Shown piece by piece: positions 47,531 to 57,502 of a DNA stretch of 64,000 bases. The stretch covers positions 111,940 through 175,939 of the forward strand of contig QQUF01000033.1 of assembly GCA_008501735.1 (NCBI GenBank). Reading direction: 5' to 3'. Source of the DNA: Calditrichota bacterium. GTDB lineage: Bacteria > CLD3. The notes under the pieces are model-generated. The model ran no database searches. It was not told the DNA's origin and saw only the letters and a list, made by a program, of their open reading frames with translations. A program made the translations under genes and the position numbers. Each line of letters opens with the position of its first letter. Position 1 is the stretch's first letter.

Positions 47531-47863
47531 TTTTTCTTCTTATTTTTAAAACATAATAAAAGTGCTTATGAACTTTATAAAATCTATTCAATAATCCAAA
47601 CTAAATTATAGATTTAAAGAAATTTTCTTCATCTTAAAACCTTTTTGAGATAAACCATTTTACATAAGTCAAAAAGCATATTATTTTAAAAAAGGTTAAA
47701 CAAAATTTTAAAATTAATACTCTGCTTTTGTTTTTAATAAGAGCAAAAGCCAAAGAGGAACCAGCTCTAATTAGAACTTACTTCTACAAATTAGAAGCAG
47801 GAACTTTTACTCAAACAAACAAAATGATTTTACTCAAATAATTTTAAATTAAGGAAGAATTCA
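47531..47863. other. 333-bp intergenic region containing a stranded T9SS tail
   Basis: The region between the divergent Nudix and YWTD-protein genes holds the 72-bp relic at 47774-47845 and little else. The part upstream of it (47531-47770) is AT-rich without a clear promoter. The frame of the relic stays open for about 24 codons upstream without any recognisable protein. Confidence 0.7.
47774..47845 (+). pseudogene. Stranded 3' end of a T9SS sorting-domain gene
   Basis: This 72-bp stretch matches 49272-49343 in 71 of 72 bases. It encodes the last 23 residues and stop of the neighbouring YWTD protein (T-Y-F-Y-K-L-E-A-G-T-F-T to the end) plus four bases past the stop codon. The one difference (TAC/TAT) is silent. 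No matching gene body precedes it. It is therefore either the remains of a deleted paralogue or a footprint of recombination at the sorting-domain end. It ends 18 bp before the YWTD gene start. Confidence 0.85.
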
Positions 47864-49339
47864 ATGAAAAGTATAACAAAGACTCTCGTTACTGCCATTG
47901 CTTTAAACTTTGGGATTAGTTCAATTTGTAATGCACAAAAAATGTATTGGACAGATATTGGATCAGATAAAATACAAAGAGCTGATTTAGACGGTTCTAA
48001 CCTTGAAGACTTAGTAACAACAGGATTAAGTCAACCTGAAGGAATAGCATTAGATTTAACTAATTCTAAGATGTACTGGGTTGATGTAGTTACAGATAAG
48101 ATACAAAGAGCTGATTTAGATGGTTCTAATGTTGAAGATCTTATTACAACTGGTTTAAGTGCAACAGTCGGAATAGCATTAGATTTAACTAATTCTAAAA
48201 TGTATTGGACTGATTTAACTACAGACAAGATACAAAGAGCTGACTTAGACGGTTCAAATGTTGAAGATCTTATCACAACTGGTTTAAGTGCTCCACAAGG
48301 AATAGAATTAGATTTAACTAACTCTAAGATGTATTGGATTGACAGAGGAATTGATAAAATTCAACGAGCAGGTCTAGACGGTTCTAATAAAGAAGATTTA
48401 GTTACATCAGCAAATTTGGACGATCCAAAAGATATTGCTTTAGATATAACTAACTCTAAAATGTATTGGACTGATAATGGAGAGAATAACATCAAAAGAG
48501 CTAATTTAGACGGATCAAGCATAGAGGTGTTATTAACAGGATTATCAAATCCATTTGGAATAGAATTAGATCTAACTAATTCAAAAATGTATTGGATAGA
48601 AGCTAATGCAAAAAAAGTAAGAAGAGCTGATTTAGATGGCTCAAATACAGAAGATTTAGTTAGTGATTTAGACATTCCTCAATTACTTGCTTTAGGAATT
48701 TCAGATACACCTCTTTCTATTGAACTTAGCTCTTTTAACCTTTTCCAAATTGAAAACACAATTCAGTTAAAATGGGTAACAGTTACTGAAAGTAATAATG
48801 AAGGTTTTAATGTTTACAGAAAATCAAGTAGAACTGATTTTGTTCAAATAGCTTCTTTTAAAGGAAATTCAGAACTTCTAGGTGAATTGAATTCAACAAC
48901 ATCAAACACTTACACCTTCACAGATAAATCAGAATTTAGGAATAATGAATTTTATACTTATTTCATTTCTGACAATGAAACCAATGGCACAGAAATAAAA
49001 CACGAAAACCTAGCTCAAACAATTCTTTTTACCTTTAAAGAAGAAATTGTAAAATCAAAAATTGATTACATTTTAGAACAAAATTTTCCAAATCCATTTA
49101 ACCCAAGTACCAAAATTAATTTTCAAATTGCGAAAGAGGGAAAAGTTACTTTGAGGATTTTTAATCTCAATGGTGAACTTATAAACGAACTTGTTAATGA
49201 TAATTTAAATGAAGGTTCACACAGTGTAAATTGGAACGGAACAAACAGCGAAGGAAAGTCTGTTTCAAGTGGAACTTATTTCTACAAATTAGAAGCAGGA
49301 ACTTTTACTCAAACAAACAAAATGATTTTACTCAAATAA
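47864..49339 (+). CDS. Secreted YWTD (LDL-receptor class B) beta-propeller protein with T9SS type A sorting domain
   Basis: 491 aa with a signal peptide (about 1-24, ending C-N-A-Q). Residues about 25-275 contain six or seven repeats of roughly 42-44 residues reading M-Y-W-T-D then K-I-Q-R-A-D-L-D-G-S-N and G-I-A-L-D-L-T-N-S-K, the YWTD propeller repeat that normally forms a six-bladed ring. After a fibronectin-like segment (about 285-375) comes the sorting domain, N-F-P-N-P-F-N-P-S-T-K to the C-terminal I-L-L-K. Repeats are nearly identical at DNA level (spacing 126-132 bp), suggesting recent expansion. Adhesion or ligand binding is likely, but the ligand is unknown. A terminator follows at 49369. 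Confidence 0.92.
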   Translation: MKSITKTLVTAIALNFGISSICNAQKMYWTDIGSDKIQRADLDGSNLEDLVTTGLSQPEGIALDLTNSKMYWVDVVTDKIQRADLDGSNVEDLITTGLSATVGIALDLTNSKMYWTDLTTDKIQRADLDGSNVEDLITTGLSAPQGIELDLTNSKMYWIDRGIDKIQRAGLDGSNKEDLVTSANLDDPKDIALDITNSKMYWTDNGENNIKRANLDGSSIEVLLTGLSNPFGIELDLTNSKMYWIEANAKKVRRADLDGSNTEDLVSDLDIPQLLALGISDTPLSIELSSFNLFQIENTIQLKWVTVTESNNEGFNVYRKSSRTDFVQIASFKGNSELLGELNSTTSNTYTFTDKSEFRNNEFYTYFISDNETNGTEIKHENLAQTILFTFKEEIVKSKIDYILEQNFPNPFNPSTKINFQIAKEGKVTLRIFNLNGELINELVNDNLNEGSHSVNWNGTNSEGKSVSSGTYFYKLEAGTFTQTNKMILLK

Positions 49340-49368
49340 TTTTTTTTCTATTAAATAGAAAATTTTCT

Positions 49369-49399
49369 AAAAAGCCCGATAAAATTATCGGGCTTTTTT
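49369..49399 (+). terminator. Rho-independent terminator
   Basis: AAAAAGCCCGATAA and TTATCGGGCTTTTT make a perfect 14-bp stem with a 2-nt loop and a T-run, 30 bp after the YWTD gene stop. Confidence 0.93.
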
Positions 49400-49548: not shown

Positions 49549-52500
49549 TTGAAAAAATTTACTCTACTCTTTCTGACAATTAGTCTAAATGTTTTTGCTC
49601 AAAGCTCACCTGTTGATACTTTACGAATTATGACTTACAACATACTTGACTTTCCTGATGCAATCGGAACACAGAGAGTTCCGTCTTTCCGTACTGTAAT
49701 TGATGAAGTTCAACCTGACATTCTGGTTGTCCAAGAAATGCACACAAGTAGCGGTGTAAACGAATTTCTTGACGATGTTTTGAATTTTACAACTCCAAAC
49801 CTCTACTCTAACGCTCCATTTATTGACGCAAGTTTTGACACCGAAAATGCACTTTTTTATAAAAGCTCAAGTGTTAATTTTATTTCTCAAGACACGATTT
49901 TGACAAACATTCGAGCAATTTCCGAATACACTTTGGAATCAAATACTTTTGTTCCTCAAGAATTCAAAATTTATTCTGTTCACTTAAAATCCTCCGAAGG
50001 TTCTGCAAACGAACAACAAAGACTTGTTGAAGCAACAATTCTGCGAAACAGAACAAACCAATTACCAATCGGAACCGAATTTATGGTAGTTGGAGATTTT
50101 AATCTTTACTCTGACCAAGAACCTGCTTTCCAAAAACTTATCGGAAGTGAAGCGAACAACAACGGAAGATTTCGCGACCCAATTAACCAATCAGGAAATT
50201 GGCACAACAATTCATCTTACAGCCAAATTCACACTCAATCTACACGAACTTCAAGTGTTGGAAGTGGTGGAGCTCTCGGAGGTCTTGACGACAGATTTGA
50301 CTTCATTTTGCCTTCTTACGGAATGAATGATAATTTTGGAATCGACTTCCTACCTTCTACTCACATTGCCTTCGGAAATGACGGAAACCATTACAATCAA
50401 TCAATAAATTCAGGTTCAAATTCGGCAGTTTCTTCGGTAGTTGCAAATGCTTTGAATTTTGCTTCTGACCACTTGCCTGTTGTGATGGATTTTGCAGTTT
50501 ACAGTTTGGCAGATTCAACAAATCCACAAATCAACTCTGCTTCTGCTTTGAACTCAAACACTGTTCGTGTTCAGTTTGACGAAAATATTTCTCAACAAAC
50601 TGCCGAATCAGTTTTGAACTATTCTGTAAACAACGGACTAGGAAATCCAACAACTGCCGTTCAGTTTAGCGGAAATCAAGTTGACCTAACTTTTGCACAA
50701 AACATTGTAAGTGGTATCACTTACATTTTGACTGTAAACAACATTCAAGACACTGACGGAAATCTAATTGACCCGAATTCAACTACAACCTTTTTCCTTT
50801 CACTAACTCCTTTAGCTGGTGATTTGGTGATTTCAGAATTTTTCAAAAACCCATCTGCTGTTAGCGACAGTGACGGAGAATTTGTAGAAATTTACAATCC
50901 AACAGCAAATACTTACGACTTGAACGGCTTAACCCTAAGAGACAACGGAACAGAATCTCACACAATTAATAGCCCAAATCCTCTTCTAATTCAACCAAAT
51001 GACTTTTTTGTCTTCGGAATAAACGGAGATTCTAACACAAACGGCGGTTTTCAAGTTGATTACGTTTACGAAACTTTCTTTTTGAGTAATTCTACAAACG
51101 GCGACGAAATAGTTCTTACTGACGGAGCTACAATCATTGACGAAGTAATTTTTTCAAATGCTTTAGGTTTTCCAAATCCAACTGGAAGTTCATTGGAATT
51201 GAGTTCTTTGAATTCCGATAACTCAATTGGTTCAAATTGGCAAGTCTCAACTATTCCGCTTGGAAACGGAGACTTTGCAAGTCCAGGATTTTTCTTTGAA
51301 ACAACTCCTCCAACAATTGACACTGTTCAGGTTTTGACTGCAAATTTAATTTCTGTTGAGTTCTCAGAAGCAGTAAACTTAGCTACCTCACAAAATCCGA
51401 GCAATTACTCTATTGACAATTCAATTGGGAATCCTGTTACAGCAAATTTTGCAAGTGGAAGCACTCACGTTATTGAACTAACTCTTCCACAAAATTTAAC
51501 TTCTGCAACTTTTACTTTGACTGTAAACAATGTTCAAGATTTAAGTGGAAATGTGATTTTGCCAAATTCAACTGCAATTTTTTCTTATACTGCTCCTGAC
51601 CCAATTGAAATAATTATTACAGAATTTATGCGAAATCCATCAGCAGTCAGTGACCTTGCTGGAGAATTTGTTGAGCTTTACAATCCGACAAACAGTCCGA
51701 TTAACATTGACGGTTTTATCCTCAAGGACAACGACATCGAAACTCACACAATTGACAACGGTGGTTCTCTGCTCATTCCACCAAATGATTTTCTTGTTCT
51801 CGGAATCAACGGAGATACAAACACAAACGGCGGAATTAATGTTGATTACGTTTATCAAAATTTCTTTTTAAGTAATTCTTCAAATGGAGATGAAGTTGTA
51901 ATCGAAGCAAATGGAATTGTACTTGACGAAGTGATTTTTTCAGATGCATTAGGATTTCCGAATCCAAGTGGTAAGTCTTTAGAAATTTCATCTTTAACAG
52001 CAGATAATTCAATAGCTTCAAATTGGATAGAATCGACGAATCAACTTCCAAGTGGTGATTTTGCAACTCCCGGATTTTTCACAACTGCTGTTCCAACTCC
52101 TCCGACTATTGACACGATTTTGGCTTTAAATACTAATTTAATTTCGGTTGAGTTTTCAGAAAGTGTTGATTCTACAACTGCATTAGACCAAAATAATTAT
52201 TTTATCAACAACTCAATCGGAAATCCAAGTTCTGTAAGTTTTGCAATTGGAAGTTCAGAAATTGTAGAACTTACACTTTCACAACCGCTCACAAATGGCA
52301 ACTTTACTTTGACTGTGAACAATGTTGAAGATTTAGACGGAAATGTAATTTTACCAAATTCAACGGCTAATTTTTCATACACAACATCCGTTGTTGTAAA
52401 TCTTGTAATTACAGAAATAATGAAAAATCCGACTGCTGTAAGCGATTCTGATGGTGAATTTGTTGAGATTTTTAATCCAACAACAAATCCGATAAATATT

Positions 52501-53100
52501 GATGGATTTGTTTTAAGAGACAACGGAAGTGAATCTCATACAATTGATAATGGAGGTTCCTTAATAATTCAACCAAACAGTTTTCTTGTCCTTGGAATTA
52601 ACGGTGATTCAAATGTAAACGGTGGAATTATAGTTGATTACGTTTACTCAACATTCTTTTTGAGCAATTCAGCAAATGGAGATGAAGTAATTCTCGAAGA
52701 CAATGGAATTGTAATTGATGAAGTGATTTTTTCAAGTTCTTTAGGATTTCCAAACCCAACTGGAAAATCAATTGAAGTAACATCTTTGACAGTTGATAAT
52801 TCATTAGGCTCAAATTGGACGGAAGCTACAAACCAACTTCCAAATGGCGACTTTGCAACTCCTGGTTTTTTCGGAAGTTCTGCACAAATTGATGCTCCAA
52901 GTGTTTCAATTCAGATTTCAGGGACAGATTTAATTCTAAGTTGGAGTGCTGTAACAAATGCAACAAACTACGATGTTTACGAATTGGATTTGCTTTCTCA
53001 AGTGGAATCTCTTTTGGGTAACTCTACAAGCCTTAACTTTACAATTAACAATTTTTCATTAAATTCACAAAAATATTACTTTGTGAAATCGAAAAATTAA
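49549..53100 (+). CDS. Large secreted EEP-family nuclease with three lamin-tail domains
   Basis: 1183 aa from TTG at 49549 with a signal peptide (about 1-17, N-V-F-A-Q). The EEP domain (about 25-330) has Y-N-I-L, V-V-Q-E-M, V-H-L-K, V-V-G-D-F-N and A-S-D-H-L-P, all intact. Three units of about 263 residues follow, each an Ig-like bacterial domain plus a lamin-tail domain (starting about 424, 686 and 950; each with G-E-F-V-E-(I/L)-(Y/F)-N-P). The C-terminus is a short fibronectin-like segment and lacks the T9SS sorting domain. Proteins of this type cut extracellular DNA or phospholipids. The stop is directly followed by the ATG of the potassium-channel gene. Confidence 0.9.
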   Translation: MKKFTLLFLTISLNVFAQSSPVDTLRIMTYNILDFPDAIGTQRVPSFRTVIDEVQPDILVVQEMHTSSGVNEFLDDVLNFTTPNLYSNAPFIDASFDTENALFYKSSSVNFISQDTILTNIRAISEYTLESNTFVPQEFKIYSVHLKSSEGSANEQQRLVEATILRNRTNQLPIGTEFMVVGDFNLYSDQEPAFQKLIGSEANNNGRFRDPINQSGNWHNNSSYSQIHTQSTRTSSVGSGGALGGLDDRFDFILPSYGMNDNFGIDFLPSTHIAFGNDGNHYNQSINSGSNSAVSSVVANALNFASDHLPVVMDFAVYSLADSTNPQINSASALNSNTVRVQFDENISQQTAESVLNYSVNNGLGNPTTAVQFSGNQVDLTFAQNIVSGITYILTVNNIQDTDGNLIDPNSTTTFFLSLTPLAGDLVISEFFKNPSAVSDSDGEFVEIYNPTANTYDLNGLTLRDNGTESHTINSPNPLLIQPNDFFVFGINGDSNTNGGFQVDYVYETFFLSNSTNGDEIVLTDGATIIDEVIFSNALGFPNPTGSSLELSSLNSDNSIGSNWQVSTIPLGNGDFASPGFFFETTPPTIDTVQVLTANLISVEFSEAVNLATSQNPSNYSIDNSIGNPVTANFASGSTHVIELTLPQNLTSATFTLTVNNVQDLSGNVILPNSTAIFSYTAPDPIEIIITEFMRNPSAVSDLAGEFVELYNPTNSPINIDGFILKDNDIETHTIDNGGSLLIPPNDFLVLGINGDTNTNGGINVDYVYQNFFLSNSSNGDEVVIEANGIVLDEVIFSDALGFPNPSGKSLEISSLTADNSIASNWIESTNQLPSGDFATPGFFTTAVPTPPTIDTILALNTNLISVEFSESVDSTTALDQNNYFINNSIGNPSSVSFAIGSSEIVELTLSQPLTNGNFTLTVNNVEDLDGNVILPNSTANFSYTTSVVVNLVITEIMKNPTAVSDSDGEFVEIFNPTTNPINIDGFVLRDNGSESHTIDNGGSLIIQPNSFLVLGINGDSNVNGGIIVDYVYSTFFLSNSANGDEVILEDNGIVIDEVIFSSSLGFPNPTGKSIEVTSLTVDNSLGSNWTEATNQLPNGDFATPGFFGSSAQIDAPSVSIQISGTDLILSWSAVTNATNYDVYELDLLSQVESLLGNSTSLNFTINNFSLNSQKYYFVKSKN

Positions 53101-55069: not shown

Positions 55070-57502
55070 TTGAAATTATTCAAAATTAAAATTTTTCTAC
55101 TTTTACTCTGCTCTTTCCCAATTCCAAAAGGCATTTTTGCACAAACAAGTTTAGCAGGAACAAATCTAGTTACTGGTGAATATTTTTGGGACAACGACCC
55201 GAACTTTGGAAACGGAACAACTTTTACTTTTACTCAAGACGATTCTATTGACTTCTCGGAAATTGTTAGTACAACAGGACTCACTAAAGGTGTTCACAAA
55301 CTTTATTTTAGATTTAAAGATTCAGCTAATTTATGGACGCAAAAACAACACGTTCTCGTGAATGTGAATGAAGCTTCAAACCAACCTGAATTTGCAGGTG
55401 CAAACTTAGTTACTGGAGAATATTTTTGGGGCAACGACCCAAATTTTGGAAACGGAAATCCTTTTACTTTTACTCAAGGCGATTCGATAAATTTCTCGGA
55501 AATTGTAAGTACAGCAGGACTTACAAAAGGTGTTCACAAACTTTATTTTAGATTTAAAGATTCAGCTAATTTGTGGACTTCAAAACAGCACGTTTTAGTG
55601 AATGTGAATGAAGCTTCAAACCAACCTGAATTTGCAGGTGCAAACTTAGTTACTGGAGAATATTTTTGGGGCAACGACCCAAATTTTGGAAACGGAAATC
55701 CTTTTACTTTTACTCAAGGCGATTCGATAAATTTCTCGGAAATTGTAAGTACAGCAGGACTTACAAAAGGTGTTCACAAACTTTATTTTAGATTTAAAGA
55801 TTCGGCTAACTTGTGGACTGACAAACAACACGTTTTAGTGAATGTGAATGAAGTTTCAAACCAACCTGAATTTGCAGGTACAAACTTAGTTACTGGAGAA
55901 TATTTTTGGGACAACGACCCAAGTTTTGGAAACGGAAATCCTTTTACTTTTACTCAAGGCGATTCAATTGATTTTTCAGAAATTGTAAGTACATCAGGAC
56001 TCACTAAAGGTGTTCACAAACTTTATTTTAGATTTAAAGATTCAGCTAATTTATGGACGCAAAAACAACACGTTCTCGTGAATGTGAATGAAGTTTCCAA
56101 CTTACCCGAATTTGCAGGAACAAACTTAGTTTCTGGTGAATACTTTTGGGACGATGACCCAAGTTTTGGAAACGGAACAGCTTTTACTTTTACTCAAGGC
56201 GATTCGATAAATTTCTCGGAAATTGTTAGTACAACAGGACTCACTAAAGGTGTTCACAAACTTTATTTTAGATTTAAAGATTCAGCTAATTTGTGGACTT
56301 CGAAACAACACGTTTTAGTTAATGTGAATGAAGCTTCAAACCAACCTGAATTTGCAGGTGCAAACTTAGTTACTGGAGAATATTTTTGGGACAACGACCC
56401 AAGTTTTGGAAACGGAAATCCTTTTACTTTTACTCAAGGTGATTCAATTGATTTTTCAGAAATTGTTAGCACAACAGGACTCACTAAAGGTGTTCACAAA
56501 CTTTATTTTAGATTTAAAGATTCAGCTAACTTGTGGACTACAAAACAACACGTTTTAGTGAATGTAAATGAAGTTTCCAACTTACCCGAATTTGCAGGAA
56601 CAAACTTAATTTCTGGTGAATACTTTTGGGACGATGACCCAAGTTTTGGAAACGGAAATCCTTTTACTTTTACTCAAGGTGATTCAATTGATTTTTCAGA
56701 AATTGTTAGCACAACAGGACTCACTAAAGGTGTTCACAAACTTTATTTTAGATTTAAAGATTCAGCTAACTTGTGGACTACAAAACAACACGTTTTAGTG
56801 AATGTAAATGAAGTTTCCAACTTACCCGAATTTGCAGGAACAAACTTAATTTCTGGTGAATACTTTTGGGACGATGACCCAAGTTTTGGAAACGGAACAG
56901 CTTTTACTTTTACTCAAGGCGATTCAATTGATTTCTCGGAAATTGTTAGTACAACAGGACTCACTAAAGGTGTTCACAAACTTTATTTTAGGTTTAAAGA
57001 TTCAGCTAACTTGTGGACGGGTAAGCAATTTGTTTTGGTTAGTGTTCAAGATGGAAGTCTCGGAGATTTGCCATTTTTCATAACTGATGTGGAGTATTTT
57101 TGGGACAACAACGACCCGGGAGAAGGAAATGCAAATTTAATCGGAAATTCAGAAAACTTTTCGGCTGTGCTTTCAACAACAGGTTTGACAGTTGACCTTC
57201 ACACTATAAATGTTCGAGCAAAAAATAATCTTAACATTTGGAGCGACCCAAAATCATTTTTGATTGGAGTTGGTTCAATGGCACTTTTTATTGATGTTGT
57301 AAATGATGACGTTCAGCTTTCTTGGTTAGAAGACCCAAGTGCTTTGGCTTATGAAATTTACAGAAGTACAAGTCCGACTAACTTACAAGACTTAACTCAA
57401 CTCTCTCCTTACACAACTGTTACTCTCACAAATTTCACAGATTTAAATGCCGCTTCTTCGGGAATGACAAACTATTTTTATAAAATTAAAGCAATTCCTT
57501 AA
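55070..57502 (+). CDS. Secreted protein of eight near-identical 80-residue repeats
   Basis: 810 aa from TTG at 55070 with a signal peptide (I-F-L-L-L-L-C-S, ending I-F-A-Q). Residues 29-668 are eight 80-residue repeats, each with G-E-Y-F-W-(D/G)-(N/D)-D-P-x-F-G-N-G and G-L-T-K-G-V-H-K-L-Y-F-R-F-K-D-S. A ninth, divergent unit (about 670-745) and a fibronectin-like C-terminal segment (about 740-810) follow. The repeats resemble the E-Y-F-x-D-x-D-P-G-x-G-x-G type found in many Bacteroidota surface proteins, of unknown role. No T9SS sorting domain is present. The gene is in the same orientation as the beta-helix gene, 15 bp away. Confidence 0.85.
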   Translation: MKLFKIKIFLLLLCSFPIPKGIFAQTSLAGTNLVTGEYFWDNDPNFGNGTTFTFTQDDSIDFSEIVSTTGLTKGVHKLYFRFKDSANLWTQKQHVLVNVNEASNQPEFAGANLVTGEYFWGNDPNFGNGNPFTFTQGDSINFSEIVSTAGLTKGVHKLYFRFKDSANLWTSKQHVLVNVNEASNQPEFAGANLVTGEYFWGNDPNFGNGNPFTFTQGDSINFSEIVSTAGLTKGVHKLYFRFKDSANLWTDKQHVLVNVNEVSNQPEFAGTNLVTGEYFWDNDPSFGNGNPFTFTQGDSIDFSEIVSTSGLTKGVHKLYFRFKDSANLWTQKQHVLVNVNEVSNLPEFAGTNLVSGEYFWDDDPSFGNGTAFTFTQGDSINFSEIVSTTGLTKGVHKLYFRFKDSANLWTSKQHVLVNVNEASNQPEFAGANLVTGEYFWDNDPSFGNGNPFTFTQGDSIDFSEIVSTTGLTKGVHKLYFRFKDSANLWTTKQHVLVNVNEVSNLPEFAGTNLISGEYFWDDDPSFGNGNPFTFTQGDSIDFSEIVSTTGLTKGVHKLYFRFKDSANLWTTKQHVLVNVNEVSNLPEFAGTNLISGEYFWDDDPSFGNGTAFTFTQGDSIDFSEIVSTTGLTKGVHKLYFRFKDSANLWTGKQFVLVSVQDGSLGDLPFFITDVEYFWDNNDPGEGNANLIGNSENFSAVLSTTGLTVDLHTINVRAKNNLNIWSDPKSFLIGVGSMALFIDVVNDDVQLSWLEDPSALAYEIYRSTSPTNLQDLTQLSPYTTVTLTNFTDLNAASSGMTNYFYKIKAIP
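55154..57073 (+). repeat. Eight tandem 240-bp repeats within a coding sequence
   Basis: The period is exactly 240 bp across all eight copies with no insertions or deletions. 56396-56656 is identical to 56636-56896 over 261 bp, and copies 2 and 3 are identical over about 170 bp (from 55381 to about 55563 against 55621 to 55803). The low divergence indicates recent unequal crossing-over; it also means an assembly could have collapsed or gained copies here. Confidence 0.95.

Follow-up and report, generated by a model that had tools for sequence, protein, structure and literature searches.

The closest described systems are gene relics in tandem arrays of paralogues (3' truncated pseudogenes), cargo proteins with the T9SS type A sorting domain (TIGR04183, PF18962), and the T9SS surface proteins of Porphyromonas gingivalis, for which domain rearrangement and allelic exchange have been reported (PMC5266723). 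The locus described here, in a window of 64,000 nucleotides of a Calditrichota draft genome, resembles the relics in having a fragment beside an intact paralogue and in belonging to a many-copy family with turnover, but differs in that no more than the last 72 bp survive, still nearly identical to the end of the next gene. Like other T9SS cargo, the intact gene carries the sorting domain at its end, whereas the stranded copy amounts to a non-coding piece of that domain. The likeness to P. gingivalis would lie in recombination among T9SS surface proteins as a source of variety; there it takes place between adhesin and catalytic domains among strains (PMC5266723), whereas here it is similarity that is concentrated, in the last 70-120 bp, inside the arrays of one genome.

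The stranded tail and the YWTD gene

The gene at 47864-49339 on the forward strand encodes a 491-aa surface protein in which five Ldl_recept_b (YWTD) repeats are followed by a T9SS type A sorting domain (Pfam/NCBIfam), the latter scoring above the curated cut-offs of both models (TIGR04183, 39.1 bits against 23; PF18962, 32.1 against 27), and the N-terminus, MKSITKTLVTAIALNFGISSICNAQ, looks signal-peptide-like by eye. The original prediction held that a copy of the 3' end of this gene lies stranded just ahead of it without a gene body of its own, and this proved correct. The stranded tail at 47774-47845 (forward strand; the last 22 codons of a sorting domain, the stop codon and 4 bp) is identical to the gene's own tail at 49272-49343 (forward strand) at 71 of 72 bases, and the sole mismatch, TAC/TAT, is silent (Tyr in both). 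Extending the alignment to 47769-47845 and 49267-49343 gives 96% identity, the longest exact run being 64 bp; random 72-mers from the window typically reach about 39/72 elsewhere, far below the match of the stranded tail. As had been claimed, 18 bp separate the end of the 72-bp match from the ATG at 47864, and the stop codon of the stranded tail (47839-47841) lies 22 bp ahead of that ATG.

The ORF in frame with the stranded tail spans 57 codons and has no ATG start. Similarity to the gene family ends at a left breakpoint at 47769-47774 (forward strand), where the alignment is at background level 5' of AATTAGAACTTAC. A decayed sorting domain farther upstream was sought with a CTD DNA profile, which gave no match 5' of the stranded tail, and with anchored alignments, which gave nothing significant; a 24-bp stretch upstream was dropped, as its p of about 0.01 by shuffling became 0.07 against random windows. 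The stranded tail thus combines similarity to a gene family, confined to the 3' end, with the lack of an intact reading frame, as a gene relic does, and is most likely an ordinary genomic relic with no visible function of its own.

Comparison with array spacers shows that the short spacer at 47846-47863 (forward strand) carries a purine-rich, ribosome-binding-like stretch (AAGGAAG) and is without the hairpin spacer of the arrays, which usually measures 80-95 bp. Downstream of the gene, an intrinsic terminator at 49369-49398 (forward strand) resembles those found 3' of array genes, being closest by eye to that of C50a. The gene is the only family member with a YWTD body found on its contig; the nearest body in the assembly is 63% identical, and there is no near-identical donor array.

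Tandem arrays, putative promoters and other stranded tails

T9SS sorting domains number at least 150 in the genome surveyed (4.14 Mb in 59 contigs). The close family of the YWTD gene comprises about 25 genes; their bodies are YWTD or FG-GAP propellers, and the family, which is large, lineage-specific and fast-changing, is organised as tandem arrays that lie on contigs C47, C10, C1, C13, C24, C38 and C50. The normal layout of an array is tail then gene, with the tail of one gene usually about 80-116 bp 5' of the next. The tail DNA matches 40 places in the genome, at 77-93% identity when the two copies themselves are excluded. Matches in a separate scan of genome contigs were limited to distant T9SS genes, and phage records gave no match. 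The array on C38 (L066:4629-16230) comprises four FG-GAP genes and one YWTD gene, of which the last ~110 bp match the array and the remainder of the sorting domain does not.

Of 26 family genes, 12, array leaders included, have a sigma54-type site (TTGGCAY-N4-6-TTG) in the 300 bp upstream; these consensus matches are putative promoters. No such site precedes any of the ten genes that follow a tail at 160 bp or less, the YWTD gene among them. RpoN is present in the genome, where the N5 form of the motif was counted 51 times, against 17 for a reversed control. With a tail close upstream and no sigma54-type site, the YWTD gene resembles an internal array gene that has been cut off from its array; it also lies far from the arrays' companion regulators, giant kinase-sigma54-activator proteins. 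Such regulators (~1,680 aa) adjoin T9SS YWTD/FG-GAP arrays on C47, C24, C1, C50, C13, C38, C5, C10 and C43 of the genome (G000; L061:9231-14279 on the reverse strand, and L065:7511-12568 and L063:5401-6345 on the forward strand), and combine Ser/Thr kinase, AAA_16, TPR, GAF and sigma54 activator domains, in some cases with a Fis-type HTH. Together with the sigma54-type sites before array leaders, their predicted domains suggest a dedicated kinase/sigma54 control of the surface-protein arrays.

Body-less tails were found at four other places in the genome (C47, C46, C7 and C20), which makes stranded tails a recurrent relic here. Two of them sit in arrays and are nearest to the gene or genes downstream: the C47 tail (L061:4709-4836, reverse strand) is decayed and finds its best match in the gene directly downstream (102/128), and that of C46 (L068:8942-9225, reverse strand) is a whole sorting domain lacking a body, with its two nearest relatives, at 246/278 and 245/278, both downstream. 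The C7 tail, also body-less, is unlike that of the downstream T9SS gene, and no T9SS gene lies directly downstream of the body-less tail on C20; the boundaries vary among the stranded tails. A tail at C24:305337 was not counted, since a run of N interrupts the gene preceding it, and a partial match at C24 (L065:2099-2137) was dropped because it sits within unrelated coding-like sequence.

Among the relatives compared, none has the locus and so shows the ancestral state, and the only genome of the same family lacks both YWTD bodies and synteny. In that genome only the part adjoining the sorting domain found a match, the YWTD body none; among the other members of the class sampled, the body had one match. 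Its NUDIX homologue adjoins a T9SS gene on the opposite side, and synteny was rejected; its short tails are mostly cut by contig ends and were left out of the counts.

Likeness of tails within arrays

A single tail shared identically by all T9SS genes, which would have left the match uninformative about the locus, is not what the genome contains: of 68 positions, the stranded copy differs at 1 from the YWTD gene and at 5 from the next closest tail, and it has all six of the gene's other non-consensus bases. At the one mismatch the stranded tail carries the family-majority C. The idea that it preserves an ancestral base and the YWTD gene a private one is weakened by the T found at that site in five other genes.

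Near-identity of this degree recurs elsewhere, the tails of several other gene pairs differing at 0-1 of 69 positions, with differences of 0 for C38a/C38d and C38b/C38c and of 1 for C10b/C10c and C46a/C46b. It also occurs across arrays (C47d/C13b and C13b/C24c, 1/69 each). The likeness can stop abruptly: C38d and C38e differ at 2/105 positions in the tail against 75/198 upstream (p = 3e-14), and C10b and C10c at 8/105 against 71/198 (p = 2e-8), so that C38e and C10b each carry the tail of the local array behind an unrelated upstream part. When array labels were shuffled within body class, tails proved more alike within than between arrays, even across body classes (permutation p < 0.001); in the first 60 bp there was no such effect (p = 0.59). 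Members of an array thus share their last ~70-120 bases while their bodies differ, and selection on the protein sequence of the tail alone does not explain the agreement of neighbours. Likeness of tails without likeness of 5' ends suggests instead that the 3' ends undergo gene conversion or exchange inside arrays, and such homogenisation is why other array neighbours equal the 71/72 identity seen here. A limited literature search turned up no account of tails being homogenised among T9SS genes.

Origin of the stranded tail

These data argue that the stranded tail is probably the 3' remnant of a former upstream neighbour in a tandem array of T9SS surface proteins. We infer that the YWTD gene was once an internal member of such an array, preceded by a sister gene, and that a break at about 47769-47774 removed the promoter, the body and most of the sorting domain of this neighbour, leaving its last 72-77 bp ahead of the YWTD gene. 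Either the neighbour would have been deleted in place, or an array fragment beginning inside the neighbour's tail would have been relocated; the lone position, the missing promoter and the missing regulator fit both alike. The near-identity of the two tails would then reflect the usual 3' homogenisation of array neighbours, by presumed gene conversion or unequal exchange, and the youth of the event. That an upstream paralogue was lost, or the gene separated from it, had been one of two routes originally proposed, and it is well supported by the arrays, the upstream tails within them, the four other stranded tails and the internal-gene promoter anatomy.

A short ectopic duplication by template switching, which placed a copy of 72-77 bp from the 3' end of the gene on its 5' side without there ever having been a second gene, would leave much the same picture. 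It would account for the stranded copy being nearest to the YWTD gene's own tail (1/68) and for the lack of any detectable remnant of a neighbour's body, but it does not account for a copy located where an array tail is expected, in front of a gene that, as is the case for other genes internal to arrays, has no leader promoter, nor for the four other stranded tails or a single mismatch that is the family-majority base, and we consider it unlikely. Slightly less likely still is the other route originally proposed, in which the YWTD gene arrived as a cassette through homologous recombination at a tail that was there before. This requires a tail already stranded at the site, when the breaking of an array is enough as a single event, and inspection of the gene's surroundings revealed no recombinase, insertion-element signature or defined recombination site adjacent to it. 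Although insertion is unneeded at this locus, the homogenisation of tails rather than 5' ends, even between YWTD and FG-GAP genes, and the composite structure of C38e and C10b lend some support to the general notion of exchange at the level of the tail. A misjoin through the repeated tail is very improbable: the assembly is a draft of 59 contigs, and several array contigs end within or near arrays, but an exact 127-bp overlap of two contig ends indicates k = 127, longer than the 64-bp longest exact repeat, which makes a graph misjoin at the stranded tail unlikely; the left junction is without shared sequence able to cause one, and there is no N in the window.

On this reading the stranded tail, taken alone, is a trace of turnover within a family of surface proteins. 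The within-array homogenisation adds to this a testable route by which T9SS-bearing bacteria may diversify their surface proteins, with exchange concentrated at the sorting-domain end. A more tentative extension is that the 3' sorting-domain tails might serve as local recombination handles, incoming passenger genes (5' end and body) adopting the tail of the array; sigma54-controlled T9SS propeller arrays would then swap bodies and keep a common end, and stranded tails would be by-products.

Elsewhere in the window, three repeats of ~790 bp at 50727-52872 lie within a neighbouring gene of 1,183 aa, which encodes three Big_5 and three lamin-tail domains, and seven weak matches at C52:167236-168699 of the same genome (about 55297-56760 in the window) are spaced at exactly 240 bp, which suggests a 240-bp tandem repeat.
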